In this document: positions 5,221-62,174 of the stretch, one piece after another
How positions within the stretch are numbered: position 1 is the first letter of the stretch
Layout of the letters: every line of letters begins with the position of its first letter
Assembly (NCBI GenBank): GCA_916048095.2
Contig: OU696593.1
Span: 5,560,830-5,624,829 of the forward strand
Reading direction: 5' to 3'
DNA: 64,000 bases
DNA from: Sacculina carcini
Lineage: Eukaryota; Arthropoda; Thecostraca; Sacculinidae
Program-made: the position numbers and the translations under genes
The notes under the pieces: generated by a model
Told to the model about the DNA's origin: nothing
The model's database searches: none
The model's input: only the letters and a program-made list of their open reading frames with translations

Positions 5221-5248
5221 TCTATATATATAAAAGAGATCCTCTGTG

Positions 5249-5280
<32 letters not shown>

Positions 5281-41405: not shown

Positions 41406-41918
41406 TGTAGCGGGCCACATTGGCTGCATTGTCGTCATTTTATGCTAGGCTTGTATATACATATTATTGTCAATTTATTATTTATCATTTTAATCATGTT
41501 TCCGGTCGAGAGTAACCGTGTGTATTTCTCCTCTCGCTCTCTCACACACACACCATGTTTGTCCGTGCACCTCACACCCTTCTGCTCTCACACTCTACTT
41601 CATTCGCAGTGCCTGTATTGCCGTGCCCACTGTACCGTTATTCGCTCTGTGTGCACACACCCTATCAGTCCTGCTCACGGGCCTGCTCTCTCGCAGTTGT
41701 TATTGTCACGAGGGCCGTGCGGACAACACACAGGTACAGTGGACACACGGCTGAAGGCAGTCGTCCCTAGTCGTTGCTGTGAGTATGATACGCGGCGCAG
41801 CACATCCCCTGGCTCTCTGCAGTTTGTTGGTGTGGTGCATGTAAATATATACATTACACATGGCGGTGTTCATGATTCTCGGGCTAGGCGATTGCATACG
41901 CGCCTGTAAAACGCTACA
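41406..41918 (+). repeat. LTR1
   Basis: The LTR has TGTAG...CTACA 5-bp inverted termini and is 513 bp long. It is the most diverged of the seven, for example GGCTGCATT in place of GGCTACATT and several substitutions around 41,475-41,510. That fits an array edge escaping homogenisation. It is preceded by the unique sequence CACCCTAGTAATCAGT. Confidence 0.85.
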
Positions 41919-41919
41919 T

Positions 41920-41937
41920 TGGTGACCCCGACGTGAT
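41920..41937 (+). promoter_or_regulatory. Primer-binding site, tRNA-Trp type (unit 1)
   Basis: TGGTGACCCCGACGTGAT starts two bases after the CTACA end of the LTR. It is complementary to the 3' end of eukaryotic tRNA-Trp (ATCACGTCGGGGTCACCA, recalled from known tRNA sequences). The same site lies at 43,724, 45,528, 47,332, 49,136, 50,940 and 52,744 in the other units, so all units keep the means to start minus-strand DNA synthesis. Confidence 0.8.
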
Positions 41938-41962
41938 CGCCGCATCTGTACCCGTCACCGCC

Positions 41963-43210
41963 ATGTCTGCAGCTTACATCACAGAAGCCGCAACTATGGC
42001 TCGAATGAGCACGCCGATGGCATCTGTCCGCCTGCCGCCATTCTCCGCCGTAGAACCGGAGCTCTGGCTAACGCAGGTGGAATTCGCCATAGATGTGTCC
42101 GGCGTAGAGGACGACCGCAACCGCCTGAAACTCCTGGTGGCCAACATACCTTTTTCACTGGCAACCCAGGTGAGAGACGTTATCATGTGTCCCACGGCGA
42201 CCTTTGCCGACTTGTGCGCTGCCTTAAGGTCCCGTCTTGCCACACAATCGTCGCAACCGGAAGCTCTTAAGGCCGACCCATTTGTCGCCGCTTCTGCTCA
42301 GCAGCCAGCGAGCTCATGGTCAGCGAGCGTCGTCGCCTCTGCCAAGATGCCGTCGCGACCGCCTGACACATCTGACACCAGCTTTGCAGCCAACGACAAT
42401 CATCTGAGTGAATTGGTGGTATTAATAGGCAGCCTCATCAAGGAGCTCCAGCTGTATCGAGCCGCTGACCATCAAACTGGTCACAGCGAGCTTCAGCTGT
42501 CCGAGTCTCGGCGCCCATCTCACACCATGCCTCACTCACGCTCGAGCAAACGTCGATCGGCCGATGCAACACGCTAAAACACCAGCAGCGGCAACTCAAC
42601 CGTGTGCTGGTATCACCGCTGCTTCGGCAAGAACGCCAAGCGGTGCAACAACCAGTGCAGCTGGCCTTCCAAGCAGCAGTTGCGGGTTGACGACCGTCCA
42701 CAGCAATTACAGCCGCTGCAAAAGCCGAAACCCCGCCAGAGGACGTACGTTCAGACATTGCAGAGCAACCAGGACCTCGTCAAACAGGTGGCACCGCGAC
42801 AGTCTCGCCGAAAAAGTCACCAGCCACGCGGCCTAGATACGTGCAGCGACGATTTCGTCCTGCACGGAAAGCGTCACTCATCACTTGATTGCTGCTTCAA
42901 GCCCGCAGTAGCAAAGCAGAGCGACACCACAGCGCTGCGGCATAAACAATATGTGCCTCGCACATCACAACCTTTCGGTACGCCTTGCCGAGGACCTAAG
43001 CCGCTCCTGCGAAGCAACAAGGCAATCAAACAACAACACGGCTCCGAACAACAGCCACGACAATCCAGCGAATGTACTTTGGCATCACGGAACCCTCAGC
43101 CGACCGTCGCCACTGCAACACCGCGGTCCATCCTCCGCTCACGTTCACCGCTTGCACGCTACGTTACTAGTCGTCGAGTTTCATTCTCATTACACTCTGA
43201 CAGGGGGTAG
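41963..43210 (+). pseudogene. Gag-like protein, unit 1, one nonsense codon
   Basis: This is the same 415-codon frame as the intact copies, but codon 205 is TAA (42,575-42,577) where the others have TCA. The frame is otherwise open to the TAG at 43,208-43,210. It is the most diverged copy at the protein level, especially in the first 20 residues. It shares S117, N230 and K328 with unit 7 at the other end of the array. Confidence 0.8.
43199..43210 (+). promoter_or_regulatory. Polypurine tract overlapping the gag stop codon
   Basis: GACAGGGGGTAG ends at the base before LTR2. It supplies the last gag codons and the TAG stop, and would serve as the plus-strand primer. The same arrangement precedes LTR3-LTR7 at 45,003, 46,807, 48,611, 50,415 and 52,219. 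In unit 6 the reading frame has already stopped upstream, but the tract is kept. Confidence 0.7.
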
Positions 43211-43722
43211 TGTAGCGGGCCACGTTGGCTACATTGTCGTCATTTTATGCTAGGCTTGTATATACGTTTTATTGTCAATTTCTTATTTGTCATTGTATTC
43301 GTGTTTCCGTTCGAGAGTAACCGTGTGTATTTCTCCTCTCGCTCTCTCTCACACACACACCATGTTTGTCCGTGCACCTCACACCCTTCTGCTCTCACAC
43401 TCTACTTCATTCGCAGTGCCTGTATCGCCGTGCCCACTGTACCGTTATTCACTGTGTGCACACACCGTATCAGTCCTGCTCACGGGCCTGCTCTCTCGCA
43501 GTTGTTATTGTCACGAGGGCCGTGCGGACAACACACAGGTACAGTGGGCACACGGCTGAAGGCAGTCGTCCCTAGTCGTTGCTGTGAGTGGTTACGCGGC
43601 GCAGCACATCCCCCGGCTCTGTGCAGTTTGTTGGTGTGGTGCATGTAAATATATACATTACACATGGCGGTGTTCATGATTCTCGGGCTAGGCGATTGCA
43701 TACGCGCCTGTAAAACGCTACA
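43211..43722 (+). repeat. LTR2
   Basis: The LTR is 512 bp, TGTAG...CTACA. It contains a CT/CA-rich stretch (about 43,336-43,362) and a TATA-like TAAATATATA (43,646-43,655) about 70 bp before its end. It carries a private GTTTTATTGTCAATTTC variant where the inner LTRs have GTGTTATTG. Confidence 0.9.
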
Positions 43723-43766
43723 TTGGTGACCCCGACGTGATCGTTGCATCTGTACCCGTCGCCGCC

Positions 43767-45014
43767 ATGACTACAGCCTACATCACAAAAGCCGCAACCA
43801 CGGCTCCAATGAGCACGCCGATGGCATCTGTCCGCCTGCCGCCATTCTCCGCCGTAGAAACGGAGCTCTGGCTAACGCAGGTGGAATTCGCCATAGATGT
43901 GTCCGGCGTAGAGGACGACCGCAACCGCCTGAAACTCCTGGTGGCCAACATACCTTTTTCACTGGCAACCCAGGTGAGAGACGTTATCATGTGTCCCACG
44001 GCGACCTTTGCCGACTTGTGCGCTGCCTTAAGGTCCCGTCTTGCCACACAATCGTCGCAACCGGAAGCGCTTAAGGCCGACCCATTTGTCGCCGCTTCTG
44101 CTCAGCAGCCAGCGAACTCATGGTCAGCGAGCGTCGTCGCCTCTGCCAAGATGCCGTCGCGACCGCCTGACACGCCTGACACCAGCTTTGCAACCAACGA
44201 CAAACTTCTGAGTGAATTGGTGGTATTAATAGGCAGCCTCATCAAAGAGCTCCAGCTGTATCGAGCCGTTGACCATCAAACTGGTCACAGCGAGCTTCAG
44301 CTGTCCGAGCCTCGGCGCCCATCTCACACCATGCCTCACTCACGCTCGCGCAAACGTCGATCGGCCGATGCAGCACGCTCAAACACCAGCGGCGGCAACT
44401 CAACCGTGTGCTGGTATCACCGCTGTTTCGGCAAGAACGCCAAGCGGTGCAACAGCCAGTGCAGCTGGCCTTCCAAGCAGCAGTCGCGGGTTGACGACCG
44501 TCCACAGCAATTACAGCCGCTGCAAAAGCCGAAACCCCGCCAGAGGACGTACGTTCAGGCATTGCAGAGCAACCAGGACCTCGTCAAACAAGTGGCACCG
44601 CGACAGTCTCGCCGAAAAAGTCACCAGCCACGCGGCCTAGATACGTGCAGCGACGATTTCGTCCTGCACGGAAAGCGTCACTCATCACTTGATTGCTGCT
44701 TCAAGCCCGCAGTAGCAAAGCAGAGCGACACCACAGCGCTGCGGCATGAACAATATGTGCCTCGCACATCACAACCTTTCGGTACGCCTTGCCGAGGACC
44801 TAAGCCGCTCCTGCGAAGCAACAAGGCAATCAAACAACAACACGGCTCCGAACAACAGCCACGACAATCCAGCGAATGTACTTTGGCATCACGGAACCCT
44901 CAGCCGACCGTCGCCACTGCAACACCGCGGTCCATCCTCCGCTCACGTTCACCGCTTGCACGCTACGTTACTATTCGTCGAGTTTCATTCTCATTACACT
45001 CTGACAGGGGGTAG
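43767..45014 (+). CDS. Gag-like structural protein of the LTR-gag element, unit 2 (reference copy)
   Basis: The protein has 415 residues, starting at the ATG in a strong Kozak context (GCCGCCATGA), 44 bases after the LTR. Residues ~23-100 resemble the N-terminal part of Ty3/Gypsy-type gag (RLPPF, ELWLTQVE, a hydrophobic SLATQVRDVI segment, then LRSRLA). The expected following capsid part appears to be missing: the chain goes straight to a low-complexity A/S/P-rich linker (about 104-145). A short helix (148-166) and a basic SRSRKRRSADAAR stretch (192-204) follow. CWYHRCFGKNAKRCNSQCSW (215-234) is the Cys/His signature known at the gag C-terminus of some animal Gypsy elements. The last ~180 residues are basic, Q/R/S-rich and unrecognised; they replace the usual protease. 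The stop abuts LTR3. The likely role is RNA binding or particle assembly, with enzymes supplied in trans. Confidence 0.8.
   Translation: MTTAYITKAATTAPMSTPMASVRLPPFSAVETELWLTQVEFAIDVSGVEDDRNRLKLLVANIPFSLATQVRDVIMCPTATFADLCAALRSRLATQSSQPEALKADPFVAASAQQPANSWSASVVASAKMPSRPPDTPDTSFATNDKLLSELVVLIGSLIKELQLYRAVDHQTGHSELQLSEPRRPSHTMPHSRSRKRRSADAARSNTSGGNSTVCWYHRCFGKNAKRCNSQCSWPSKQQSRVDDRPQQLQPLQKPKPRQRTYVQALQSNQDLVKQVAPRQSRRKSHQPRGLDTCSDDFVLHGKRHSSLDCCFKPAVAKQSDTTALRHEQYVPRTSQPFGTPCRGPKPLLRSNKAIKQQHGSEQQPRQSSECTLASRNPQPTVATATPRSILRSRSPLARYVTIRRVSFSLHSDRG
43971..43979 (+). other. Strong splice-donor-like site inside gag
   Basis: CAG|GTGAGAG lies at codons 69-71 of the unit 2 gag and is preserved in all units. 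It matches the metazoan 5' splice-site consensus well. Whether it is used is unknown. Confidence 0.3.
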
Positions 45015-45526
45015 TGTAGCGGGCCACGTTGGCTACATTGTCGTCATTTTATGCTAGGCTTGTATATACGTGTTATTGCCAATTTCTTATTTGTCATTGT
45101 ATTCGTGTTTCCGTTCGAGAGTAACCGTGTGTATTTCTCCTCTCGCTCTCTCTCACACACACACCATGTTTGTCCGTGCACCTCACACCCTTCTGCTCTC
45201 ACACTCTACTTCATTCGCAGTGCCTGTATCGCCGTGCCCACTGTACCGTTATTCGCTGTGTGCACACACCGTATCAGTCCTGCTCACGGGCCTGCTCTCT
45301 CGCAGTTGTTATTGTCACGAGGGCCGTGCGGACAACACACAGGTACAGTGGGCACACGGCTGAAGGCAGTCGTCCCTAGTCGTTGCTGTGAGTGGTTACG
45401 CGGCGCAGCACATCCCCCGGCTCTGTGCAGTTTGTTGGTGTGGTGCATGTAAATATATACATTACACATGGCGGTGTTCATGATTCTCGGGCTAGGCGAT
45501 TGCATACGCGCCTGTAAAACGCTACA
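45015..45526 (+). repeat. LTR3
   Basis: The LTR is 512 bp, TGTAG...CTACA. It carries the GTGTTATTGCCAATTTC variant near 45,070 that is shared only with LTR5. Confidence 0.9.
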
Positions 45527-45570
45527 TTGGTGACCCCGACGTGATCGTTGCATCTGTACCCGTCGCCGCC

Positions 45571-46818
45571 ATGACTACAGCCTACATCACAAAAGCCGCA
45601 ACCACGGCTCCAATGAGCACGCCGATGGCATCTGTCCGCCTGCCGCCATTCTCCGCCGTAGAAACGGAGCTCTGGCTAACGCAGGTGGAATTCCCCATAG
45701 ATGTGTCCGGCGTAGAGGACGACCGCAACCGCTTGAAACTCCTGGTGGCCAACATACCTTTTTCACTGGCAACCCAGGTGAGAGACGTTATCATGTGTCC
45801 CACGGCGACCTTTGCCGACTTGTGCGCTGCCTTAAGGTCCCGTCTTGCCACACAATCGTCGCAACCGGAAGCGCTTAAGGCCGACCCATTTGTCGCCGCT
45901 TCTGCTCAGCAGCCAGCGAACTCATGGTCAGCGAGCGTCGTCGCCTCTGCCAAGATGCCGTCGCGACCGCCTGACACGCCTGACACCAGCTTTGCAACCA
46001 ACGACAAACTTCTGAGTGAATTGGTGGTATTAATAGGCAGCCTCATCAAAGAGCTCCAGCTGTATCGAGCCGTTGACCATCAAACTGGTCACAGCGAGCT
46101 TCAGCTGTCCGAGCCTCGGCGCCCATCTCACACCATGCCTCACTCACGCTCGCGCAAACGTCGATCGGCCGATGCAGCACGCTCAAACACCAGCGGCGGC
46201 AACTCAACCGTGTGCTGGTATCACCGCTGTTTCGGCAAGAACGCCAAGCGGTGCAACAGCCAGTGCAGCTGGCCTTCCAAGCAGCAGTCGCGGGTTGACG
46301 ACCGTCCACAGCAATTACAGCCGCTGCAAAAGCCGAAACCCCGCCAGAGGACGTACGTTCAGGCATTGCAGAGCAACCAGGACCTCGTCAAACAAGTGGC
46401 ACCGCGACAGTCTCGCCGAAAAAGTCACCAGCCACGCGGCCTAGATACGTGCAGCGACGATTTCGTCCTGCACGGAAAGCGTCACTCATCACTTGATTGC
46501 TGCTTCAAGCCCGCAGTAGCAAAGCAGAGCGACACCACAGCGCTGCGGCATGAACAATATGTGCCTCGCACATCACAACCTTTCGGTACGCCTTGCCGAG
46601 GACCTAAGCCGCTCCTGCGAAGCAACAAGGCAATCAAACAACAACACGGCTCCGAACAACAGCCACGACAATCCAGCGAATGTACTTTGGCATCACGGAA
46701 CCCTCAGCCGACCGTCGCCACTGCAACACCGCGGTCCATCCTCCGCTCACGTTCACCGCTTGCACGCTACGTTACTATTCGTCGAGTTTCATTCTCATTA
46801 CACTCTGACAGGGGGTAG
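45571..46818 (+). CDS. Gag-like protein, unit 3
   Basis: The frame is intact, 415 codons. It differs from the unit 2 protein by A42P only, and a nearby silent CGCCTG to CGCTTG change accompanies it. Both changes, and the LTR3 variant, recur in unit 5, so units 3 and 5 are more closely related to each other than to the units between them. The stop abuts LTR4. Confidence 0.8.
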   Translation: MTTAYITKAATTAPMSTPMASVRLPPFSAVETELWLTQVEFPIDVSGVEDDRNRLKLLVANIPFSLATQVRDVIMCPTATFADLCAALRSRLATQSSQPEALKADPFVAASAQQPANSWSASVVASAKMPSRPPDTPDTSFATNDKLLSELVVLIGSLIKELQLYRAVDHQTGHSELQLSEPRRPSHTMPHSRSRKRRSADAARSNTSGGNSTVCWYHRCFGKNAKRCNSQCSWPSKQQSRVDDRPQQLQPLQKPKPRQRTYVQALQSNQDLVKQVAPRQSRRKSHQPRGLDTCSDDFVLHGKRHSSLDCCFKPAVAKQSDTTALRHEQYVPRTSQPFGTPCRGPKPLLRSNKAIKQQHGSEQQPRQSSECTLASRNPQPTVATATPRSILRSRSPLARYVTIRRVSFSLHSDRG

Positions 46819-47330
46819 TGTAGCGGGCCACGTTGGCTACATTGTCGTCATTTTATGCTAGGCTTGTATATACGTGTTATTGTCAATTTCTTATTTGTCA
46901 TTGTATTCGTGTTTCCGTTCGAGAGTAACCGTGTGTATTTCTCCTCTCGCTCTCTCTCACACACACACCATGTTTGTCCGTGCACCTCACACCCTTCTGC
47001 TCTCACACTCTACTTCATTCGCAGTGCCTGTATCGCCGTGCCCACTGTACCGTTATTCGCTGTGTGCACACACCGTATCAGTCCTGCTCACGGGCCTGCT
47101 CTCTCGCAGTTGTTATTGTCACGAGGGCCGTGCGGACAACACACAGGTACAGTGGGCACACGGCTGAAGGCAGTCGTCCCTAGTCGTTGCTGTGAGTGGT
47201 TACGCGGCGCAGCACATCCCCCGGCTCTGTGCAGTTTGTTGGTGTGGTGCATGTAAATATATACATTACACATGGCGGTGTTCATGATTCTCGGGCTAGG
47301 CGATTGCATACGCGCCTGTAAAACGCTACA
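46819..47330 (+). repeat. LTR4
   Basis: The LTR is 512 bp, TGTAG...CTACA, with the GTGTTATTGTCAATTTC variant shared with LTR6 and LTR7. Confidence 0.9.
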
Positions 47331-47374
47331 TTGGTGACCCCGACGTGATCGTTGCATCTGTACCCGTCGCCGCC

Positions 47375-48622
47375 ATGACTACAGCCTACATCACAAAAGC
47401 CGCAACCACGGCTCCAATGAGCACGCCGATGGCATCTGTCCGCCTGCCGCCATTCTCCGCCGTAGAAACGGAGCTCTGGCTAACGCAGGTGGAATTCGCC
47501 ATAGATGTGTCCGGCGTAGAGGACGACCGCAACCGCCTGAAACTCCTGGTGGCCAACATACCTTTTTCACTGGCAACCCAGGTGAGAGACGTTATCATGT
47601 GTCCCACGGCGACCTTTGCCGACTTGTGCGCTGCCTTAAGGTCCCGTCTTGCCACACAATCGTCGCAACCGGAAGCGCTTAAGGCCGACCCATTTGTCGC
47701 CGCTTCTGCTCAGCAGCCAGCGAACTCATGGTCAGCGAGCGTCGTCGCCTCTGCCAAGATGCCGTCGCGACCGCCTGACACGCCTGACACCAGCTTTGCA
47801 ACCAACGACAAACTTCTGAGTGAATTGGTGGTATTAATAGGCAGCCTCATCAAAGAGCTCCAGCTGTATCGAGCCGTTGACCATCAAACTGGTCACAGCG
47901 AGCTTCAGCTGTCCGAGCCTCGGCGCCCATCTCACACCATGCCTCACTCACGCTCGCGCAAACGTCGATCGGCCGATGCAGCACGCTCAAACACCAGCGG
48001 CGGCAACTCAACCGTGTGCTGGTATCACCGCTGTTTCGGCAAGAACGCCAAGCGGTGCAACAGCCAGTGCAGCTGGCCTTCCAAGCAGCAGTCGCGGGTT
48101 GACGACCGTCCACAGCAATTACAGCCGCTGCAAAAGCCGAAACCCCGCCAGAGGACGTACGTTCAGGCATTGCAGAGCAACCAGGACCTCGTCAAACAAG
48201 TGGCACCGCGACAGTCTCGCCGAAAAAGTCACCAGCCACGCGGCCTAGATACGTGCAGCGACGATTTCGTCCTGCACGGAAAGCGTCACTCATCACTTGA
48301 TTGCTGCTTCAAGCCCGCAGTAGCAAAGCAGAGCGACACCACAGCGCTGCGGCATGAACAATATGTGCCTCGCACATCACAACCTTTCGGTACGCCTTGC
48401 CGAGGACCTAAGCCGCTCCTGCGAAGCAACAAGGCAATCAAACAACAACACGGCTCCGAACAACAGCCACGACAATCCAGCGAATGTACTTTGGCATCAC
48501 GGAACCCTCAGCCGACCGTCGCCACTGCAACACCGCGGTCCATCCTCCGCTCACGTTCACCGCTTGCACGCTACGTTACTATTCGTCGAGTTTCATTCTC
48601 ATTACACTCTGACAGGGGGTAG
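47375..48622 (+). CDS. Gag-like protein, unit 4
   Basis: The frame is intact, 415 codons, and its translation is identical to that of unit 2, although the two units are 3,608 bp apart. That shows very recent duplication or ongoing conversion. The stop abuts LTR5. Confidence 0.8.
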   Translation: MTTAYITKAATTAPMSTPMASVRLPPFSAVETELWLTQVEFAIDVSGVEDDRNRLKLLVANIPFSLATQVRDVIMCPTATFADLCAALRSRLATQSSQPEALKADPFVAASAQQPANSWSASVVASAKMPSRPPDTPDTSFATNDKLLSELVVLIGSLIKELQLYRAVDHQTGHSELQLSEPRRPSHTMPHSRSRKRRSADAARSNTSGGNSTVCWYHRCFGKNAKRCNSQCSWPSKQQSRVDDRPQQLQPLQKPKPRQRTYVQALQSNQDLVKQVAPRQSRRKSHQPRGLDTCSDDFVLHGKRHSSLDCCFKPAVAKQSDTTALRHEQYVPRTSQPFGTPCRGPKPLLRSNKAIKQQHGSEQQPRQSSECTLASRNPQPTVATATPRSILRSRSPLARYVTIRRVSFSLHSDRG

Positions 48623-49134
48623 TGTAGCGGGCCACGTTGGCTACATTGTCGTCATTTTATGCTAGGCTTGTATATACGTGTTATTGCCAATTTCTTATTT
48701 GTCATTGTATTCGTGTTTCCGTTCGAGAGTAACCGTGTGTATTTCTCCTCTCGCTCTCTCTCACACACACACCATGTTTGTCCGTGCACCTCACACCCTT
48801 CTGCTCTCACACTCTACTTCATTCGCAGTGCCTGTATCGCCGTGCCCACTGTACCGTTATTCGCTGTGTGCACACACCGTATCAGTCCTGCTCACGGGCC
48901 TGCTCTCTCGCAGTTGTTATTGTCACGAGGGCCGTGCGGACAACACACAGGTACAGTGGGCACACGGCTGAAGGCAGTCGTCCCTAGTCGTTGCTGTGAG
49001 TGGTTACGCGGCGCAGCACATCCCCCGGCTCTGTGCAGTTTGTTGGTGTGGTGCATGTAAATATATACATTACACATGGCGGTGTTCATGATTCTCGGGC
49101 TAGGCGATTGCATACGCGCCTGTAAAACGCTACA
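48623..49134 (+). repeat. LTR5
   Basis: The LTR is 512 bp, TGTAG...CTACA, with the GCCAATTTC variant shared with LTR3. Confidence 0.9.
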
Positions 49135-49178
49135 TTGGTGACCCCGACGTGATCGTTGCATCTGTACCCGTCGCCGCC

Positions 49179-50426
49179 ATGACTACAGCCTACATCACAA
49201 AATCCGCAACCACGGCTCCAATGAGCACGCCGATGGCATCTGTCCGCCTGCCGCCATTCTCCGCCGTAGAAACGGAGCTCTGGCTAACGCAGGTGGAATT
49301 CCCCATAGATGTGTCCGGCGTAGAGGACGACCGCAACCGCTTGAAACTCCTGGTGGCCAACATACCTTTTTCACTGGCAACCCAGGTGAGAGACGTTATC
49401 ATGTGTCCCACGGCGACCTTTGCCGACTTGTGCGCTGCCTTAAGGTCCCGTCTTGCCACACAATCGTCGCAACCGGAAGCGCTTAAGGCCGACCCATTTG
49501 TCGCCGCTTCTGCTCAGCAGCCAGCGAACTCATGGTCAGCGAGCGTCGTCGCCTCTGCCAAGATGCCGTCGCGACCGCCTGACACGCCTGACACCAGCTT
49601 TGCAACCAACGACAAACTTCTGAGTGAATTGGTGGTATTAATAGGCAGCCTCATCAAAGAGCTCCAGCTGTATCGAGCCGTTGACCATCAAACTGGTCAC
49701 AGCGAGCTTCAGCTGTCCGAGCCTCGGCGCCCATCTCACACCATGCCTCACTCACGCTCGCGCAAACGTCGATCGGCCGATGCAGCACGCTCAAACACCA
49801 GCGGCGGCAACTCAACCGTGTGCTGGTATCACCGCTGTTTCGGCAAGAACGCCAAGCGGTGCAACAACCAGTGCAGCTGGCCTTCCAAGCAGCAGTCGCG
49901 GGTTGACGACCGTCCACAGCAATTACAGCCGCTGCAAAAGCCGAAACCCCGCCAGAGGACGTACGTTCAGGCATTGCAGAGCAACCAGGACCTCGTCAAA
50001 CAAGTGGCACCGCGACAGTCTCGCCGAAAAAGTCACCAGCCACGCGGCCTAGATACGTGCAGCGACGATTTCGTCCTGCACGGAAAGCGTCACTCATCAC
50101 TTGATTGCTGCTTCAAGCCCGCAGTAGCAAAGCAGAGCGACACCACAGCGCTGCGGCATGAACAATATGTGCCTCGCACATCACAACCTTTCGGTACGCC
50201 TTGCCGAGGACCTAAGCCGTTCCTGCGAAGCAACAAGGCAATCAAACAACAACACGGCTCCGAACAACAGCCACGACAATCCAGCGAATGTACTTTGGCA
50301 TCACGGAACCCTCAGCCGACCGTCGCCACTGCAACACCGCGGTCCATCCTCCGCTCACGTTCACCGCTTGCACGCTACGTTACTATTCGTCGAGTTTCAT
50401 TCTCATTACACTCTGACAGGGGGTAG
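49179..50426 (+). CDS. Gag-like protein, unit 5
   Basis: The frame is intact, 415 codons. Differences from unit 2 are A9S and L348F (private), A42P (shared with unit 3) and S230N in the Cys/His motif (shared with units 1, 6 and 7). The S230N mark cuts across the 3/5 versus 4/6 grouping, which points to recombination or conversion within units. The stop abuts LTR6. Confidence 0.8.
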   Translation: MTTAYITKSATTAPMSTPMASVRLPPFSAVETELWLTQVEFPIDVSGVEDDRNRLKLLVANIPFSLATQVRDVIMCPTATFADLCAALRSRLATQSSQPEALKADPFVAASAQQPANSWSASVVASAKMPSRPPDTPDTSFATNDKLLSELVVLIGSLIKELQLYRAVDHQTGHSELQLSEPRRPSHTMPHSRSRKRRSADAARSNTSGGNSTVCWYHRCFGKNAKRCNNQCSWPSKQQSRVDDRPQQLQPLQKPKPRQRTYVQALQSNQDLVKQVAPRQSRRKSHQPRGLDTCSDDFVLHGKRHSSLDCCFKPAVAKQSDTTALRHEQYVPRTSQPFGTPCRGPKPFLRSNKAIKQQHGSEQQPRQSSECTLASRNPQPTVATATPRSILRSRSPLARYVTIRRVSFSLHSDRG

Positions 50427-50938
50427 TGTAGCGGGCCACGTTGGCTACATTGTCGTCATTTTATGCTAGGCTTGTATATACGTGTTATTGTCAATTTCTT
50501 ATTTGTCATTGTATTCGTGTTTCCGTTCGAGAGTAACCGTGTGTATTTCTCCTCTCGCTCTCTCTCACACACACACCATGTTTGTCCGTGCACCTCACAC
50601 CCTTCTGCTCTCACACTCTACTTCATTCGCAGTGCCTGTATCGCCGTGCCCACTGTACCGTTATTCGCTGTGTGCACACACCGTATCAGTCCTGCTCACG
50701 GGCCTGCTCTCTCGCAGTTGTTATTGTCACGAGGGCCGTGCGGACAACACACAGGTACAGTGGGCACACGGCTGAAGGCAGTCGTCCCTAGTCGTTGCTG
50801 TGTGTGGTTACGCGGCGCAGCACATCCCCCGGCTCTGTGCAGTTTGTTGGTGTGGTGCATGTAAATATATACATTACACATGGCGGTGTTCATGATTCTC
50901 GGGCTAGGCGATTGCATACGCGCCTGTAAAACGCTACA
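50427..50938 (+). repeat. LTR6
   Basis: The LTR is 512 bp, TGTAG...CTACA, and has a private GCTGTGTGTGGTT (others GCTGTGAGTGGTT) near 50,797-50,809. Confidence 0.9.
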
Positions 50939-50982
50939 TTGGTGACCCCGACGTGATCGTTGCATCTGTACCCGTCGCCGCC

Positions 50983-52230
50983 ATGACTACAGCCTACATC
51001 ACAAAAGCCGCAACCACGGCTCCAATGAGCACGCCGATGGCATCTGTCCGCCTGCCGCCATTCTCCGCCGTAGAAACGGAGCTCTGGCTAACGCAGGTGG
51101 AATTCGCCATAGATGTGTCCGGCGTAGAGGACGACCGCAACCGCCTGAAACTCCTGGTGGCCAACATACCTTTTTCACTGGCAACCCAGGTGAGAGACGT
51201 TATCATGTGTCCCACGGCGACCTTTGCCGACTTGTGCGCTGCCTTAAGGTCCCGTCTTGCCACACAATCGTCGCAACCGGAAGCGCTTAAGGCCGACCCA
51301 TTTGTCGCCGCTTCTGCTCAGCAGCCAGCGAACTCATGGTCAGCGAGCGTCGTCGCCTCTGCCAAGATGCCGTCGCGACCGCCTGACACGCCTGACACCA
51401 GCTTTGCAACCAACGACAAACTTCTGAGTGAATTGGTGGTATTAATAGGCAGCCTCATCAAAGAGCTCCAGCTGTATCGAGCCGTTGACCATCAAACTGG
51501 TCACAGCGAGCTTCAGCTGTCCGAGCCTCGGCGCCCATCTCACACCATGCCTCACTCACGCTCGCGCAAACGTCGATCGGCCGATGCAGCACGCTCAAAC
51601 ACCAGCGGCGGCAACTCAACCGTGTGCTGGTATCACCGCTGTTTCGGCAAGAACGCCAAGCGGTGCAACAACCAGTGCAGCTGGCCTTCCAAGCAGCAGT
51701 CGCGGGTTGACGACCGTCCACAGCAATTACAGCCGCTGCAAAAGCCGAAACCCCGCCAGAGGACGTACGTTCAGGCATTGCAGAGCAACCAGGACCTCGT
51801 CAAACAAGTGGCACCGCGACAGTCTCGCCGAAAAAGTCACCAGCCACGCGGCCTAGATACGTGCAGCGACGATTTCGTCCTGCACGGAAAGCGTCACTCA
51901 TCACTTGATTGCTGCTTCAAGCCCGCAGTAGCAAAGCAGAGCGACACCACAGCGCTGCGGCATGAACAATATGTGCCTCGCACATCACAACTTTTCGGTA
52001 CGCCTTGCCGAGGACCTAAGCCGCTCCTGCGAAGCAACAAGGCAATCAAACAACAACACGGCTCCGAACAACAGCCACGACAATCCAGCGAATGTACTTT
52101 GGCATCACGGAACCCTTAGCCGACCGTCGCCACTGCAACACCGCGGTCCATCCTCCGCTCACGTTCACCGCTTGCACGCTACGTTACTATTCGTCGAGTT
52201 TCATTCTCATTACACTCTGACAGGGGGTAG
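50983..52230 (+). pseudogene. Gag-like protein, unit 6, C-terminal nonsense codon
   Basis: The frame is open to codon 378; codon 379 is TAG (52,117-52,119) where the other units have CAG. It would make a 378-residue protein that keeps the Cys/His motif and lacks only the last 37 residues, so it may still be functional. P337L is private and S230N is shared with units 5 and 7. Confidence 0.75.
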
Positions 52231-52742
52231 TGTAGCGGGCCACGTTGGCTACATTGTCGTCATTTTATGCTAGGCTTGTATATACGTGTTATTGTCAATT
52301 TCTTATTTGTCATTGTATTCGTGTTTCCGTTCGAGAGTAACCGTGTGTATTTCTCCTCTCGCTCTCTCTCACACACACACCATGTTTGTCCGTGCACCTC
52401 ACACCCTTCTGCTCTCACACTCTACTTCATTCGCAGTGCCTGTATCGCCGTGCCCACTGTACCGTTATTCGCTGTGTGCACACACCGTATCAGTCCTGCT
52501 CACGGGCCTGCTCTCTCGCAGTTGTTATTGTCACGAGGGCCGTGCTGACAACACACAGGTACAGTGGGCACACGGCTGAAGGCAGTCGTCCCTAGTCGTT
52601 GCTGTGAGTGGTTACGCGGCGCAGCACATCCCCCGGCTCTGTGCAGTTTGTTGGTGTGGTGCATGTAAATATATACATTACACATGGCGGTGTTCATGAT
52701 TCTCGGGCTAGGCGATTGCATACGCGCCTGTAAAACGCTACA
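52231..52742 (+). repeat. LTR7
   Basis: The LTR is 512 bp, TGTAG...CTACA, with a private G-to-T change in GGGCCGTGCTGACAAC (others GTGCGGACAAC) near 52,546. It is the last LTR of the array. Confidence 0.9.
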
Positions 52743-52786
52743 TTGGTGACCCCGACGTGATCGTCGCATCTGTACCCGTCGCCGCC

Positions 52787-53771
52787 ATGACTACAGCCTA
52801 CATCACAAAAGCCGCAACCACGGCTCCAATGAGCACGCCGATGGCATCTGTCCGCCTGCCGCCATTCTCCGCCGTAGAAACGGAGCTCTGGCTAACGCAG
52901 GTGGAATTCGCCATAGATGTGTCCGGCGTAGAGGACGACCGCAACCGCCTGAAACTCCTGGTGGCCAACATACCTTTTTCACTGGCAACCCAGGTGAGAG
53001 ACGTTATCATGTGTCCCACGGCGACCTTTGCCGACTTGTGCGCTGCCTTAAGGTCCCGTCTTGCCACACAATCGTCGCAACCGGAAGCGCTTAAGGCCGA
53101 CCCATTTGTCGCCGCTTCTGCTCAGCAGCCAGCGAGCTCATGGTCAGCGAGCGTCGTCGCCTCTGCCAAGATGCCGTCGCGACCGCCTGACACGCCTGAC
53201 ACCAGCTTTGCAACCAACGACAAACTTCTGAGTGAATTGGTGGTATTAATAGGCAGCCTCATCAAAGAGCTCCAGCTGTATCGAGCCGTTGACCATCAAA
53301 CTGGTCACAGCGAGCTTCAGCTGTCCGAGCCTCGGCGCCCATCTCACACCATGCCTCACTCACGCTCGCGCAAACGTCGATCGGCCGATGCAGCACGCTC
53401 AAACACCAGCGGCGGCAACTCAACCGTGTGCTGGTATCACCGCTGTTTCGGCAAGAACGCCAAGCGGTGCAACAACCAGTGCAGCTGGCCTTCCAAGCAG
53501 CAGTCGCGGGTTGACGACCGTCCACAGCAATTACATCCGCTGCAAAAGCCGAAACCCCGCCAGAGGACGTACGTTCAGGCATTGCAGAACAACCAGGACC
53601 TCGTCAAACAAGTGGCACCGCGACAGTCTCGCCGAAAAAGCCACCAGCCACGCGGCCTAGATACGTGCAGCGACGTTTTCGTCCTGCACGGAAAGCGTCA
53701 CTCACCACTTGATTGCTGCTTCAAGCCCGCAGTAGCAAAGCAGAGCGACACCACAGCGCTGCGGCATAAAC
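52787..53771 (+). pseudogene. Gag-like protein, unit 7, truncated by the array edge
   Basis: The frame matches the other units up to about codon 328 and then leaves the repeat. The reading frame continues for 22 codons into unrelated AT-rich DNA and stops at 53,839. Private changes are Q250H, S268N, D297V and S307P. S117 and K328 are shared with unit 1 only. No LTR follows, so the 3' end of the array was lost by deletion or rearrangement. Confidence 0.75.
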
Positions 53772-53854: not shown

Positions 53855-56800
53855 CTAGCATTAAAACCCGCCCGTTGTGCGGAGCAATTCATAACATGAA
53901 TAACTGCCCGCGGGACATTTTTATTTCATAAAAATGAGCCATCGCTTCGTTTGCGTTTGAAGCCCCTGATCATTGAACCAGCGAACCATGAACCAGCGCA
54001 ATTATGTCACCTCATATTCAAGCATACATACACAGACAGACAGATAATTTCTTCTTTATGTATATATATAGCATTAAAACCGCATTAAAACCCGCCCGTT
54101 GTACGGAACAATTCATAAAAATATTGCAAATTAAAAATATATAAGGCAAACTCATGAACTCCTTAATCAATTAAAAAGTCTAAAGTATGGAAAAATAAAA
54201 ATGAAATAGGGTACACTCATAAAAATATTAATCAATTGAAAATTATAAGTTTAATTATTTTTATTTCGACAAAATATTTCCCCTCAGTCCGCCTGAGTCA
54301 TTTTAAAACCCGCCCGTCGTGCTGAATAATTCAGAACTCGAACACGATCCGTTCTGGATCTTGAAGTCAAATCCATTGGTTTTGTGTATGGATTAATTCT
54401 ACAGGGTAAATTGAACGTTGTATTGTCTATAGTTGCTGCCCGCGGATCATTTTTATTTCTAAAAAAATACAAAATGAAATGATTAAAAATGGAAACACCC
54501 TTTTTAAACCCGCCCGTCGTGGGGAACAATTCATACAATAAAATTCATATTTGAAGTCAAATCCATTTGTTTTGTGTATGGATTAATTCTACAGGGAAAA
54601 TTGAACGTTCTATTGTCTATAGTTGCTGCCCGCGGAACATTTTTATTTTAAAAAAAAAAACCTTTTTTTAAATGAACCATTTGAAAAAATGATCTAAAAA
54701 CACTTTTTTAAACCCACCCGTCGTGCGGAACAATTCATACAATAAAATTCATATCAAATCCATAAAATATAATGAATACAAATTGAAAACCAAAAAATGT
54801 AACCTATAAATATCTTAACCAATAGAAAAGTCTAAATGTGAATATTTTTGTTCTTATTTTGACAAATATTATCCCTCAACCCGCCTGATATATAAATCTG
54901 CCCGTCGTGTGGTATAATTCAGAACACAAACACGAAACAAACAATGAAAGATGATGAAATCTTTTCATCAGAATGTTTCCAAACTATATTTATTACTTAA
55001 CATCATTCTCCAATATCATTTGCTTAAGTACTTTTTCGCTTTTACCGCTATAATATTGATTGTTAAAATTTATATATTTTCCGCTATCATTAAAACCCAA
55101 TATAACCTGAGTCAAACCTACCCAACCCAACCCAACCATTCAATCTTGACCGCTCTCAGCCTAGTCTGAGGTGATTTAACTTATTAGTTTGTGATCACAA
55201 AATATACTGATGCGATCATAATTTGTAATCAGAAGACTGAGATTATCTACCCCAGGGGTCCCAAACACGCGGCCCACCAATACTTTTCTCTCAACCCGCC
55301 AATATAGTATCGGGACCAAACTGTAAGGCAGCTAAATTCACATTTGTTGCATAATGCGATATAATTATACACCATTATCATATTATCTCATAATTCCCGG
55401 TTAATGCTTCCACTAATGCATCATATTCATACAGTTGTTATTTTTTGGATTACACCGATATTTCAGCCCTTGATATTACAGCCGATAATATATTATGCAA
55501 CCTATATTCTGCTACGTATTATTCCTAATACATATATCATCAGATCGCAAAATATATTTAAAGGTTCACATCATTCTCCAAAATCATTTGCTTAAGAGCT
55601 ATTCTACTTTTATCGCTAGAATATTTACTGCTAGCAAAATATCATATACCTCGCTATCATTTAAACCCACTCTTTATAGATACATTTAATTCGCCCGTCG
55701 TGCGGAACAGTTAATTAAATATAATTAATATTCAATTCATAAAAAAATTAGTGAAAATTGAAAAAGAAAAACAAACCCATAGGAATGTTTAGCCAATATA
55801 AAAGTCTAAATGTGAAATTTATGTTTCAATTTAGAGAACATGTTTTTCCACAACCCGCCTCATATTTAAAGCTGCCCGTCGTGCAGAATAATTCAGAACT
55901 CAAACACGAAACAAACACAAAGAAAATTGATGAAAAACGACCAATAGAATAGTCAAATTTGTAAATTCTTGTTTTAATTATTGACGATGTTTTTCCCTCA
56001 ACACTACTCAAATTCACACCCGTCCTTAGTGTGTAGTAATTCAGAGGTGTAACACTATCAAAACAATGAAACATCTCTATAATTCCAGATTAATGCTTCC
56101 TCTAAAACAGCATATGCATATACTTGGCATTGCATGATATTACAACCCGTATCCTCATGCAACTTAAGCGTATGCAACTTGAAATTAAACCAATTAAATT
56201 ACACAGTAAAATTCAGTAGCTTACTTTGTTCCAAGTAGCATTTTACCCGCCCGTCGTGCGGAACATTTGATGTGTAAATATTGAGGACAATAAAGACTTT
56301 CTATTCAGTATAGTGTAGCATTAATTAAACTGTACGCAAAAAAACCACACCATCCATGCTTGGAGATAATATGATGCGTTCTTAATTGTGATTGGGTTTC
56401 AGTGAAATTTAATCGGTGTATATTCCTGTGTAATCGCAAGTGCGCATAATAGCTGTCAAATTGGCAATATGTCCTTTTGACTTTACACCGCCGTAACTTC
56501 ATTCAGATACCTTTGGAAAATTACAAATTATACCGTATTATAGAAAATAAGATTTCTAGCACGATGGTATAATTTATTTTTATGTATAACAAATAGTTAC
56601 TGGAAAATAGTAGAAAAATAAATTAATTTTAGTCGCCCGGTTCAAGTGTAATTTTGGATGTATTTGAGAATTTTGCCAATTGTACACGTTTTTGTATCGT
56701 TTGTGGGTATAAATTAAAATTTTTCTTGTAGAACACAAAATTATCTACACAATAGTATAATTTTTATAGCTGTACCATTACTGGTTTATGAGGAATAGAT

Positions 56801-57437
56801 AGCGAAATATTGACCAAAATATTCACGTTTTTTGTGCTAATTTTGCCTTTTTGCTTTTTTGTCATTTACACTTCACACCGCCGTAACTTTTTTTAATACA
56901 CTTTGGAAAATTGAAAATTATACCGTGTTGTAGCAAACAAAATTCCCAGCATGATGGTATTATTTATTTAGATGTGTGATTATTAGTTTTTGAGAAATAG
57001 AGAAAAAAATATAGAAAATCGGACGCGTGGAGTTTAAATAAAATTTTGAATGTAGATTTAATTTTTTCCATTTTAAATGTTTTTTATTAAATTTTTAGGT
57101 ATAAATTATAATTTGTTGAGCAGAACAGAAAATTTTCTACACATTGGTATAACTTGTATAGTTGTACCATTGCTGGTTTAGGAGGAGTAGTCTTCAGAAA
57201 ATTGACCAAAATTTTCGCATTTTTCAGGGTTGATTTTGTCTTTTCACCGCTATAACTTTTTTGGTTTCAATTTTCAAATTAAAAATTTATATTACAGTGT
57301 AGACAAGAAAATTTCCAACGTAATGGTATAAATTGTTAGCGGATAGGCCAAGTGGTGGCCAAATAATAGCTGATAGAAAATGGACCAAGGAGGGTTGGAC
57401 AGACACACAGACACACACACACACACACAGAGGATCT

Positions 57438-57439
<2 letters not shown>
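53855..57439 (-). mobile_element. Helitron-like copy H10, right inverted arm
   Basis: The copy reads on the - strand from a tip at about 57,439 (AAGAGATCCTCTGTGTGTGTG) to CTAG at 53,855. Its 3' ~1.1 kb matches the inverse of 39,000-40,094 with only scattered differences and shares the private marks of H9. Its 5' region belongs to the other subfamily (TTGGTCCATTTTCTATCAGC), and near 55,870-56,060 it keeps a stretch that H9 lacks. It is therefore a mosaic. The hAT-like end lies inverted at about 55,252-55,277. Confidence 0.6.

Positions 57440-57530
<91 letters not shown>
57440..57530. repeat. Long (AT)n microsatellite at the tip of H10
   Basis: About 90 bp of almost pure alternating AT extends the short TATATATATA found at other tips. 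Such tracts expand by slippage and are prone to cruciform formation and assembly error. Confidence 0.95.
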
Positions 57531-57533
<3 letters not shown>

Positions 57534-57580
57534 TTTTATGAATTGTTTCGCCCGTTGTGCGAAACAATTCATAAAAATAT
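57530..57580. repeat. Perfect 22-bp inverted repeat with 7-nt loop
   Basis: The left arm 57,530-57,551 is exactly complementary to the right arm 57,559-57,580, and the loop is CCGTTGT. The hairpin sits where a GC box (normally ...GAATTGTTCCGCACAACGGGC...) ends the neighbouring copy H11. In other copies the flanks of the box are not palindromic, so this is a newly made long hairpin, directly adjoining the (AT)n tract. Confidence 0.85.
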
Positions 57581-60500
57581 TGCAAATTAAAAATAAATAA
57601 GGCAAACTCATGAAAACCTTAATAAATTAAAAAGTCTAAATTTCACTATTTTTAATTTTATTTTGACAAAATATTTTCACTTAGCCCGCCTCATATTTAA
57701 ACCCGCCCGACGTGAGGAATAATTCAGAACTCGAACACCATCCGTTCTGGTTCTTGAAGTCAAATCCATTAGTTTTGTATATGAATTCATTCTACACGGT
57801 GAAATTGAACGTTTTATTGCTGCCCGCGGGACATTTTTATTTAATAAAAATGAGCCATCGCTTCGTTTGCGTTTGAAGCCCCTGATCATTGAACCAGCGC
57901 AATTATGTCACCTCATATTCAAGCATACATACACAGACAGACAGATAATTTCTTCTTTATGTATATATATAGCATTAAAACCGCATTAATACCCGCCCGT
58001 TGTGCGGAACAATTCATAAAAATATTGCAAATTAAAAATAAATAAGGCAAACTCATGACGACCTTAATCAATTAAAAAGTCTAAATTTCATTATTTTTAA
58101 TTTTATTTTGAAAAAATATTTTCACTCAACCCGCCTCATATTTAAACCCGCCCGACGTGAGGAATAATTCAGAACTCGAACACCATAAGTTCTGGTTCTT
58201 GAAGTCAAATACGTTAGTTTTGTATATGAACTCATTCTATACGGTGAAATTTAACGTTTTATTGCTGCCCGCGGGACATATATATTTCATAAAAATGAGC
58301 CATCGCTTCGTTTGCGTTTCAAGCCCCTGATCATTGAACCAGCGAACCATGAACCAGCGGAATTATGTCACCTCATATTCAAGCATACATACACAGACAG
58401 ACAGATAATTTCTTCTTTATGTATATATATATAGCATTAAAACCCGCCCGTTGTGCGGATATTATATATTTTCCGCTATCATTAAAACCCAATATAACCT
58501 GAGTCAAACCTACCCAACCCAACCCAACCATTCAATCTTGACCGCTCTCAGCCTAGTCTGAGGTGATTTAACTTATTAGTTTGTGATCACAAAATATACT
58601 GATGCGATCATAATTTGTAATCATAAGACTGAGATTATCTACCCCAGGGGTCCCAAACACGCGGCCCACCAATACTTTTCTCTCAACCCGCCAATATAGT
58701 ATCGGAACCAAACTGTAAGGCAGCTAAATTCACATTTGTTGCATAATGCGATATAATTATATACCATTATCATATTATCTCATAATTCCCGGTTAATGCT
58801 TCCACTAATGCATCATATTCATACAGTTGTTATTTTTTGGATTACACCGATATTACAGCCCTTGATATTACAGCCGATATTATATTATGCAACCTATATT
58901 CTGCTACGTATTATTCCTAATACATATATCATCAGATCACAAAATATATTTAAAGGCTCACATCATTCTCCAAAATCATTTGCTTAAGAGCTATTCTACT
59001 TTTATCGCTAGAATATTTACTGCTAGCAAAATATCATATACCTCGCTATCATTTAAACCCACTCTTTATAGATACATTTAATTCGCCCGTCGTGCGGAAC
59101 AGTTCATAAAATATAATTAATATTCAATTCATAAAAAATGAGTGCAAATTGAAAAAGAAAAACAAACCCACAGGAAAGTTTTAGCTAATATAAAAGTCTA
59201 AATGTAAAATTTATGTTTCAATTTAGAAAACATGTTTTTCCACAACCCGCCTCATATTTAAAGCTGCCCGTCGTGCGGAATAATTCAGAACTCAAACACT
59301 AAACAAACACAAACAAAATTGATGAAAAACGACCAATAGAAAAGTCAAATTTGTAAATTCTTGTTTTAATTATTGACGATGTGTTTCCCTCAACACTACT
59401 CAAATTCACACCCGTCCTTCGTGTGTAGTAATTCAGAGGTGTAACACTATCAAAACAATAAAACATCTCTATAATTCCAGATTAATGCTTCCTCTAAAAC
59501 AGCATATGCATATACTTGGCATTGCATGATATTACAACCCGTATCCTTATGCAACTCAAGCGTATGCAACTTGAAATTAAACCAATTAAATTACACAGTA
59601 AAATTCAGTAGCTCACTTTGTTCCAAGTAGCATTTTACCCGCCCGTCGTGCGGAACATTTGATGTGTAAATATTGAGGACAATAAAGACTTTCTATTCAG
59701 TATAGTGTAGCATTAATTAAACTGTACGCAAAAAAACCACACCATCCATGCTTGGAGATAATATGATGCGTTCTTAATTGTGATTGGGCTTCAGTGAAAT
59801 TTAATCGGTGTATATTCCTGTGTAATCGCAAGTGCGCATAATAGCTGTCAAATTGGCAATATGTCCTTTTGACTTTACACCGCCGTAACTTCCTTCAGAT
59901 ACCTTTTGGTAAATTACAAATTATACCGTATTGTAGAAAACAAGATTTCTAGCACGATGGTATAATTTATTTTTATGTATAACAAATATTTACTGAGAAA
60001 TAGTAGAAAAATAATATAATTTTAGTCACCCGGTGTTCAAGTGTAATTTTGGATGTATTTGAGAATTTTGCTAATTTTACACGTTTTTTGTATAATTTAT
60101 GGGTCTAAATTATAACTTTTCTTGTAGAACACAAAATTATCTACACAATAGTATAAGTTTTATAGCTGTACTACTGCTGGTTTATCAGGACTGGATAGCG
60201 GAATAATGACCAAAATATTAACGTTTTTGTGTGCTAATTTTGCCTTTTTGACTTTGTCATTCACACTTCACACCGCCGTAACTTTTTTTTAATACACTTT
60301 GCAAAATAAAAAATTACACCGTGTTGTAGCCAAGAAAATTCCCAGCATGATGGTATTATTAATTTAGATGTGAGATTATTAGTTTTTGAGAAAGAGAGAA
60401 AAAAGTATAGAAAATCGGACGCGTCGAGTTAAAAAAATATTTTGAATGTTGATTGAATTTTTTTTACATTTTACATGTTTTATATTTTATTTTTGGGTTT

Positions 60501-60841
60501 AAATTATAGTGCGTTGAGTAGAACATACAATTTTCTACACATTGGTATAACTTGTATAGTTGTACCATTGCTGGTTTAGGAGGAGTAGTCTCCAGAAAAT
60601 TTACCAAAATTTTCGCATTTTTAGGGTTCATTTTGTCTTTTCACCGCAATAACTTTTTTTGGTTTTATTTTTAAAATTTAAAATTTAGTTTTAAGTGTAG
60701 ACAACAAGATTTACAACATGATGGTATAAATTTGGAGCGGGTACGCCAAGTGATGTCCGATAAGCAGCTCATAGAAAATGGACCAAGGAGGGTGGGACAC
60801 ACAAACACACAGACACACAGAGGATCTCTTTTATATATAGA
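57531..60841 (-). mobile_element. Helitron-like copy H11 with internal deletion
   Basis: The 5' tip TCTATATATAAAAGAG starts at 60,841 on the - strand and borders non-repeat DNA. The body continues normally to about 58,461. There GCGGAAAATATATAAT is joined to a module starting CCGCACAACGGGCGGG, which removes the usual middle modules. Two 460-bp-type modules follow (58,460-57,581) down to the hairpin at 57,530-57,580. It runs head to tail into H10. Confidence 0.55.
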
Positions 60842-61433
60842 TATATATATATATGCCTTCGGTAGACTGAATTCTTTCCCATATATTGATCTCGCCATTG
60901 AGCCCACCATGGAAAATATACAGTAAAATTTGGGATTAATATATGAGCTTCCAAATGGCCGGGGTCTCCGGTAGTTGTCTTGTGGCGCTTGTGGGTCCGT
61001 TTTTCTATAAGCAGTCGCGTGTTACTGGCCAGTCGCCAGTGTAAATGATGAGTATATTGTGGTTTTGTCGTGTAGACGCTTTGTTTATATGACTATTTGT
61101 GTTTATGTATAGAGTGATGAGGAGACACGTTGTTTGTGTATATTGTCGTTAGATGGCGTTACCAGTGTGTTAGCTGATTATATGTATGTGATCAATGGGC
61201 CGGACTTAGAGGTGCGAGGAGAAATAATGGGGCAGTGCGGTGGTGGAGTCTGTGGCGTGAGCGTGGAGCGGTTATTGTTGCGAGCGTGGAGCGCTTTGAG
61301 CTGTTGAATTGTGAGAATTTGCAGGTGAAGTTTTTATTGTATTAATTGTTTGTTTTCTGTCTCATCGCATTGTTCAACCTCATTCGTATTCGGTCATCTA
61401 ATACATCTTAAAACCACAAGCTAACCGGCCATA
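60842..61433 (+). other. 5' flank or leader of the second LTR retroelement
   Basis: A short AT tract is followed by unique, more GC-balanced sequence up to the gag start. It probably includes part of a 5' LTR and the untranslated leader. I cannot place LTR ends or a primer-binding site, because the matching 3' LTR lies outside the window. Confidence 0.35.
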
Positions 61434-61970
61434 ATGGCAAAAATATCTCACGATATGATCAGGGCGTTTGCCGGCGATGGAGACGTTGTGGCGTGGTTAA
61501 AGAAAGCAACGTTGGTAGCAAAGCTGCAAGGTGTATCTGACCTAGCCAGTTTCATTCCGCTGTATCTTGAGGGGGATGCGTTAGCGCTATATTTAGAGCT
61601 GTCTAAGGAGGCCCAGGACAATGCTGATCAGATTCAGCAAATGCTGATTGGAGCATTCACGGATGATGCGTTCACGGCGCATAGAAATTTGTGTGAGAAA
61701 AGATGGAGTGGCGAATCTGTTGATGTATATGCCAATGAGATCAGAAGGTTGGCTGGACTGGCCAGTTTCGATAATGCAGGTGTTGAGCATGCAACGAGAC
61801 TCGCGTTTGTGAATGGTTTTCCTGTCGACATCAGAGTCACGCTTCAGCGTTTACCAAATGTTTTAAAGATGACGACCAGCGAGCTGATTGCTCATGCCCG
61901 TGTGTTGGCTGCTAATAGAGCCGTGAATGTGGTGGCCGCCGGTGACGCGGTCAGTGGGAGCATGGAATAA
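61434..61970 (+). CDS. Gag (matrix/capsid part) of a second LTR retroelement
   Basis: The ORF has 178 codons from an ATG in a good context (GGCCATAATGGC). The pattern DVVAWLKKATLVAKLQ, then LYLEGDALALYLEL, then FTAHRNLCEKRWSGESVDVY and ANEIRRLAGLASF is typical of retrotransposon gag capsid domains in invertebrate elements. The ORF ends in TAA (61,968-61,970), but the same frame continues directly into two zinc knuckles. The stop is therefore inside what should be one Gag chain: either a nonsense mutation or, less likely, a readthrough site. It shares no visible similarity with the gag of the 1,804-bp array. Confidence 0.75.
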   Translation: MAKISHDMIRAFAGDGDVVAWLKKATLVAKLQGVSDLASFIPLYLEGDALALYLELSKEAQDNADQIQQMLIGAFTDDAFTAHRNLCEKRWSGESVDVYANEIRRLAGLASFDNAGVEHATRLAFVNGFPVDIRVTLQRLPNVLKMTTSELIAHARVLAANRAVNVVAAGDAVSGSME

Positions 61971-62174
61971 CAGCTGCGAGATAATGCTGCTCCGCGAAGA
62001 TTCAACGGACGATGCTTCGTGTGTGGAGGGCCTCACATGGCACGCTACTGTAGCAAACGTAAACCAATCGTGTGTTATCGGTGCGGAAAAGACGGACACA
62101 AGTCATTTGAATGCAAGTCGGAAAACTTGAGTGGGGTGGCTTGTGCGCCAGCAGTCACTCCAATGAGCCAATAA
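61971..62174 (+). pseudogene. Nucleocapsid part of gag with two zinc knuckles, after an in-frame stop
   Basis: This segment is in the same frame as the upstream gag. The first knuckle (62,013-62,051) is C-X2-C-X3-H-X4-C, one residue shorter than canonical; the second (62,073-62,114) is a canonical C-X2-C-X4-H-X4-C. The frame ends at TAA 62,172-62,174 and overlaps the protease frame by 64 bases. The role in the family is genomic RNA binding. Without readthrough of the TAA at 61,968 it would not be made. Confidence 0.7.

Follow-up and report, generated by a model that had tools for sequence, protein, structure and literature searches.

The stretch of DNA analysed here (the window, 64 kb; C26:5560830-5624829 in the Sacculina carcini assembly of 264.4 Mb and 43 contigs) contains a tandem array of a non-autonomous long terminal repeat (LTR) retroelement. 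The array comprises seven head-to-tail units at 41406 to ~53771, six whole and one truncated, with a single LTR between neighbours. The repeated element is a coding, internally deleted derivative of a CsRn1-type Ty3/gypsy element, and composites that join it to other elements through a shared LTR occur elsewhere in the same genome. On the reading we favour, to which we assign a probability of about one half, the array was seeded as a multi-unit complementary DNA (cDNA) and then expanded by unequal exchange.

The array has the alternation of LTR and internal region that defines shared-LTR tandems. GC content rises from ~33% outside to 56% across it, and the dominant spacing of its repeated 14-mers is 1804 (9,369 of those counted). 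The LTRs, like all features of the array, lie on the forward strand: 41406..41918 (unit 1), 43211..43722 (unit 2), 45015..45526 (unit 3), 46819..47330 (unit 4), 48623..49134 (unit 5), 50427..50938 (unit 6) and 52231..52742 (unit 7). They are 512 bp long (513 bp in unit 1) with the ends TGTAGCG...CGCTACA, and the 4 bp preceding the first are CAGT. In all seven units the LTR is followed by one base, the primer site TGGTGACCCCGACGTGATCG (41920..41939 in unit 1, the equivalent place in the others) and an ATG in CCGCCATG context. The polypurine tract GACAGGGGGTAG stands ahead of the next LTR in units 1-6 (45003..45014 for the tract ahead of the unit 3 LTR). Unit 7 ends at ~53771, upstream of where the tract and a terminal LTR would lie, and the 3' end of the array is missing. 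Much of the initial annotation, made from the sequence alone, is borne out: an LTR element with shared LTRs and a Trp-type primer site in an animal-like genome, seven tandem units (the last of them truncated) and a Kozak-type ATG in every unit. Its exact 1,804-bp period holds for five spacings, whereas the spacing of unit 1 is 1805 bp and this unit is diverged; the polypurine tract it assigned to every unit is lacking in unit 7, which is cut before that point; and the LTRs number seven, not eight.

The internal regions encode a frame of 415 aa, open in four of the seven units, as the expectation of several open frames had it: unit 2 (43767..45014, with the stop codon inside the polypurine tract), unit 3 (45571..46818), unit 4 (47375..48622) and unit 5 (49179..50426). 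The frame of unit 1 (41963..43210) has a TAA stop at 42575-42577, that of unit 6 (50983..52230) a TAG at 52117-52119 (378 aa), and that of unit 7 (52787..53771) is cut at the array end. The DUF7041 region of the frame models as the capsid N-terminal domain; a 64-residue Gag block, which models as the capsid C-terminal domain, is absent, and the zinc (CHCC) box is joined to a pol tail. Protease, reverse transcriptase (RT), RNase H and integrase core are all lacking. Going by these models, two deletions would have reduced the polyprotein to a capsid N-terminal domain, a nucleic-acid-binding CHCC box and a pol tail. The absence of the Gag block and the presence of a pol tail make this a CsRn1-type element shortened by internal deletion and not plain gag, and the description 'gag-only' has to be given up. 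As the element itself has no RT, the CsRn1 assignment rests on the primer site and the Gag box. The Trp-type primer site TGGTGACCCCGACGTGAT, one base after the LTR, is that of the CsRn1 clade, and the box CWYHRCFGKNAKRCNNQC is an exact CX2HX9CX3C as defined in PMC2582038. The CsRn1-clade elements PwRn1, AgCR and CsRn1 combine a tRNA-Trp primer site with a CHCC Gag box; unlike these full elements with pol, the array element has no pol enzymes (PMC2582038).

The state of the frame also bears on the idea that the array is kept as a host-useful cluster encoding a Gag-derived protein. Such a role would fit the finding that 14 of the 17 aligned copies outside the array have no in-frame stop, four stop events being seen against ~12 expected. 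However, the ratio of non-synonymous to synonymous substitution rates is 0.98 between units 1 and 2, with a median of 0.82 across 113 pairs; the frame is interrupted in units 1 and 6; and the element lacks the Gag block that is most conserved. We consider this the least credible of the alternatives. The frame without a capsid C-terminal domain clearly exemplifies an element that probably depends on a helper and has an open frame under little protein constraint.

A DNA search of the genome gave at least 74 matches (39 of 184 candidates scored; the window's own array is not among the matches listed). Those listed include 25 loci beyond the window that contain internal sequence, 20 of which were examined, and LTR-only matches that are candidate solo LTRs by their appearance. 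Single LTR-internal-LTR copies with target-site duplications (TSDs), for which the initial annotation had proposed a search, are present: a perfect 4-bp TSD flanks every one of the 11 stand-alone copies in which both LTR ends are preserved. They count as nine independent insertions because three copies on C11 share their flanks. The latter (L025, L026 and L034; C11:5.35-5.39 Mb), with identical flanks and TSD within ~34 kb, stem from a single insertion multiplied by segmental duplication. One more copy with two LTRs, the twelfth (L027, on C2), adjoins an autonomous element and lacks matching flanks. Divergence within LTR pairs, measured in 13 copies, ranges from 0 to 3.3%. At none of the 20 loci examined does a protease or RT of the element's own follow its internal region, the arrangement named at the outset as the one that would tell against a pol-less element. 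On the contig of the array, ~80 kb upstream of it, lies a copy that has been rearranged (L032, C26:5521700-5525391): parts of its internal region are inverted and stand next to LTR_Y-like sequence.

The enzymes missing from the element are present in a 5.8-kb autonomous relative (L047) with RVP, RVT_1, RNase H, H2C2 and rve; similar Gag and RT motifs recur at L038, L040, L042, L044 and L045. At the DNA level these relatives have the first bases of the LTR, the polypurine tract and the primer site in common with the short element, their LTRs being otherwise different; they were located through a DNA pattern, and closer helpers may exist. The element is probably helper-dependent, mobilised by the proteins of such related autonomous elements.

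Three of the 20 loci examined have the element joined to other elements through a shared LTR and primer site. On C24 the order is LTR_Y-INT_Y-LTR_Y-INT_go-LTR_go, where 'go' is the array element and family Y, judged by eye, has a gag, a protease and part of an RT; the outer flanks form a perfect TSD (GTGG / GTGG). On C11 an autonomous element, the 5' LTR of which carries a ~950-bp insertion, holds in its leader tandem pieces of several array-element units in the order primer site-internal 2-99, LTR end and primer site, internal 1217-1289, LTR, internal 2-1221; here too the outer flanks form a perfect TSD (TGTG / TGTG). On C1 the internal region is followed by a hybrid LTR, a primer site and another gag that is CsRn1-like by eye. 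The TSD test covers C24 and C11: because perfect duplications flank both (the chance of a 4-bp match is ~1/256 each, given equal base frequencies), each looks like one insertion. The insertion of one element into another was considered for both loci and rejected, none of the internal flanks inspected fitting a TSD. LTR exchange within one element cannot have made the C24 composite, because its two end LTRs differ. The junction of LTR end and primer site (with up to 3 mismatches) is found at 110 places in the genome, and among the ~100 listed the only same-strand neighbours less than 3 kb apart are those of the array (7 places), C11:4544919/4545531 and C24:1427941/1425575. In the C11 composite (L044) a 713-aa stop-to-stop frame at 3532-5670 runs from the array-element Gag region into the autonomous Gag region, its middle being partly in another reading frame than in single copies.

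These composites suggest how the array may have begun. The element keeps its LTR, Trp-type primer site and polypurine tract, with which it could be packaged, copied and integrated by the proteins of autonomous relatives. The products of CsRn1-type reverse transcription might sometimes chain units through the LTR-end/primer-site stretch, for instance if minus-strand synthesis that had arrived at the primer site of one RNA went on along a second co-packaged RNA. A chained multi-unit cDNA with one LTR between neighbours would then integrate as one piece, as C24 and C11 support, and a cDNA of this kind would have seeded the array. Unequal exchange and gene conversion, to which the variant patterns described below point, would later have lengthened and homogenised the array within the chromosome, with the 3' end lost at some stage. 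Put more generally, and tentatively, it is plausible that CsRn1-type reverse transcription in this genome repeatedly links RNAs packaged together, whether from one family or from different ones, yielding inserts that integrate as one unit, may have differing outer LTRs and can seed satellite-like arrays. If so, C24, flanked by a perfect TSD and with a Y LTR at its 5' end but an array-element LTR at its 3' end, is a direct record of chaining.

Another route would be homologous recombination, independent of integrase, between a cDNA or one-LTR circle and a copy already resident in the chromosome. The C24 structure is compatible with this, patches of another haplotype set unit 1 apart from units 2-7, and there is a precedent in yeast, as cited in PMC11899658. 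However, inspection of C24 finds only ~11 bp of homology between the LTR-family ends outside the primer site, and nothing direct favours such an event at the array; we regard it as unlikely.

What happened after seeding is recorded in the differences among units. Pairwise comparison finds that all seven differ from one another. Unit 1 stands apart, diverging by 2.5-3.5% from the others: against units 2-6 it differs at 17-18 of 510 bases in the LTR and at 32-35 of 1292 in the internal region, while the ten pairs among units 2-6 average 3.4 differences in 1292 internal bases and 1.8 in the 512 of the LTR. Units 3 and 5 have 65C, 680C and 719T in common, which are absent from units 4 and 6, and in a four-gamete test these three sites conflict with site 1245 (3 incompatible pairs). 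At 535, 906 and 1538 units 1 and 7 keep the family states, units 2-6 having derived states in common. Such a pattern is best read as unequal exchange and conversion, with the edges of the array least homogenised. Unit 1 bears tracts of the family's other haplotype (LTR 72-135; internal 534-650, 964-996, 1059 and 1163). Of the 44 differences that are fixed between unit 1 and units 2-7, 25 are states that other copies also have (10-14% would be expected of new mutations); sequence of another copy must therefore have entered, by gene conversion or through a recombinant RNA. The same 25 differences had suggested that unit 1 belongs to a different subfamily; this was rejected, its internal region falling in the array clade and only short patches being of the other haplotype.

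The main alternative dispenses with multi-unit cDNA: a single LTR-internal-LTR insertion would have grown into an array as LTRs crossed over unequally time and again, between sister chromatids or between homologues, with gene conversion patching unit 1. Several observations speak for it. The tree of internal regions places all seven units in a single clade (100/99) beside copy L017; 10 internal states (6 of them beyond the unit 7 cut) and 2 LTR states are common to the units and absent from the other copies aligned; exchange within the array is clear; the locus as a whole is duplication-prone; and the same process has been proposed for the TRIM tandems of cestodes (PMC4558846). Against it, the 25 segregating states in unit 1 mean that outside sequence came in, the LTR tree unites units 2-7 (98/90) and leaves unit 1 outside in a weakly supported group, and mixed-family composites with perfect TSDs exist in the same genome. 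This history keeps its standing because the 3' end of the array is missing, and we consider it possible, though on the doubtful side. Both origins proposed initially, LTR-LTR unequal exchange and integration of a concatemer, are still plausible: the unit variants show later exchange, and the mixed composites elsewhere favour cDNA-stage multimers as seeds.

A further alternative is an artefact of assembly. The copy number is that given by the assembly; against an artefact, the contigs are long (7.3 Mb for that of the array), unit 1 is diverged by 2.5-3.5%, and stutter of one unit by the assembler is unlikely because all seven units differ. We consider an artefact very improbable.

A number of points weigh against seeding by a multi-unit cDNA. 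The array's own TSD is beyond testing since its 3' end is truncated, and the one-clade internal tree is also what a single insertion with LTR-LTR exchange predicts. The surrounding DNA is full of duplications, and the locus may simply duplicate easily. At C24, the internal polypurine tract of Y also ends in GTGG, so that the 5' flank can be read otherwise, and a circular cDNA recombining with a resident element would yield the same structure and TSD equally. The autonomous family found shares only LTR starts, polypurine tract and primer site with the element at the DNA level, and mobilisation in trans is inferred. The end-to-end pair on C2 (array element, TTG, autonomous LTR) lends co-integration no support: its outer flanks match at 3 of 4 bases only, and it was dropped as a candidate co-integrated dimer on account of its LTR divergence (15/507 vs 7/751).

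TRIMs (terminal-repeat retrotransposons in miniature) are short and non-coding, while TR-GAG elements of plants have LTRs, a primer site, a gag-derived frame and a polypurine tract without pol enzymes, a complete gag being their sole coding content. The array element belongs to neither: its unit of 1.8 kb has a 1.29-kb internal region with a 415-aa Gag/pol-tail frame, in which a truncated Gag is fused to a pol tail, and it is of CsRn1 type in an animal host. It resembles the TRIM tandems of plants, cestodes and bivalves (biv-TRIM) in being non-autonomous, head to tail and with a shared LTR, and in the presence of single copies and apparent solo LTRs in the same genome (PMC6934838, PMC4558846). 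Tandem TRIM arrays of the pattern TDRx_I(x-1), with a short internal domain, are described in taeniid cestodes and bivalves (up to TDR58_I57; PMC6934838); animals already offer known examples of shared-LTR arrays of non-autonomous elements. In rice and other plants tandem LTR-retrotransposons share LTRs, some being TSD-flanked, and both complex insertion and later recombination were deemed possible for the rice tandems (Morales-Diaz et al. 2025, PMC11899658); these have conserved protein domains, unlike the array, a deletion derivative in an animal with mixed-family tandems in its genome. Shared LTRs also link the array to yeast Ty1 multimers (the subject of a reference title in PMC5371812) and kangaroo centromeric tandems, which belong to other element families and hosts and are cited, with Drosophila tandem insertions, in PMC11899658. 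Searches of the open-access literature, judged mostly from titles and the beginnings of abstracts, turned up no case that we recognised of a gag-bearing LTR element arrayed in an animal genome. Shared-LTR tandems are thus already known, and what is new here is the coding CsRn1-type deletion derivative together with mixed composites in one animal genome. A homotypic array and TSD-flanked composites of one clade allow two steps to be separated: the composites would record chaining before integration and the array the later exchange.

Some further observations concern the primer tRNA. A 26-nt Trp-type tRNA 3' end has exact matches at 13 places in the genome; the two inspected are both followed by CCA. 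One (L057, C6:7775933-7776108) directly abuts an autonomous LTR end, as would result from copying of the primer tRNA into cDNA. The other (L058, C9:5472057-5472232) reaches through a CTCCAGA anticodon loop, which we take to be that of tRNA-Trp. The 17-nt complement of the primer site also occurs in same-strand pairs at C3:6691540/6691828 (L052, 288 bp apart) and C9:5687732/5687786 (L053, 54 bp apart). ARAGORN found no tRNA gene in the eight stretches scanned, L052 and L053 among them, so that the gene of the primer tRNA was not located.

Rfam and tRNA scans of the 64-kb window were empty. TTAGG-type repeats are numerous, with 9,340 and 10,013 pattern matches on the two strands of the genome, as would also suit an insect. 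Around the array, AT-rich repeat units are many times duplicated (window 1-38100 and 54182-60854), partly inverted on the right, with 88.6-99.2% identity in 15 listed pairs and the maximum of 99.2% over 3.7 kb. A separate retroelement outside the array, at 61425-63920, has an aspartyl-protease-like frame and RT/RNase H, with Pfam matches to DUF7047, RVT_1 (under the cut-off) and RVT_3.

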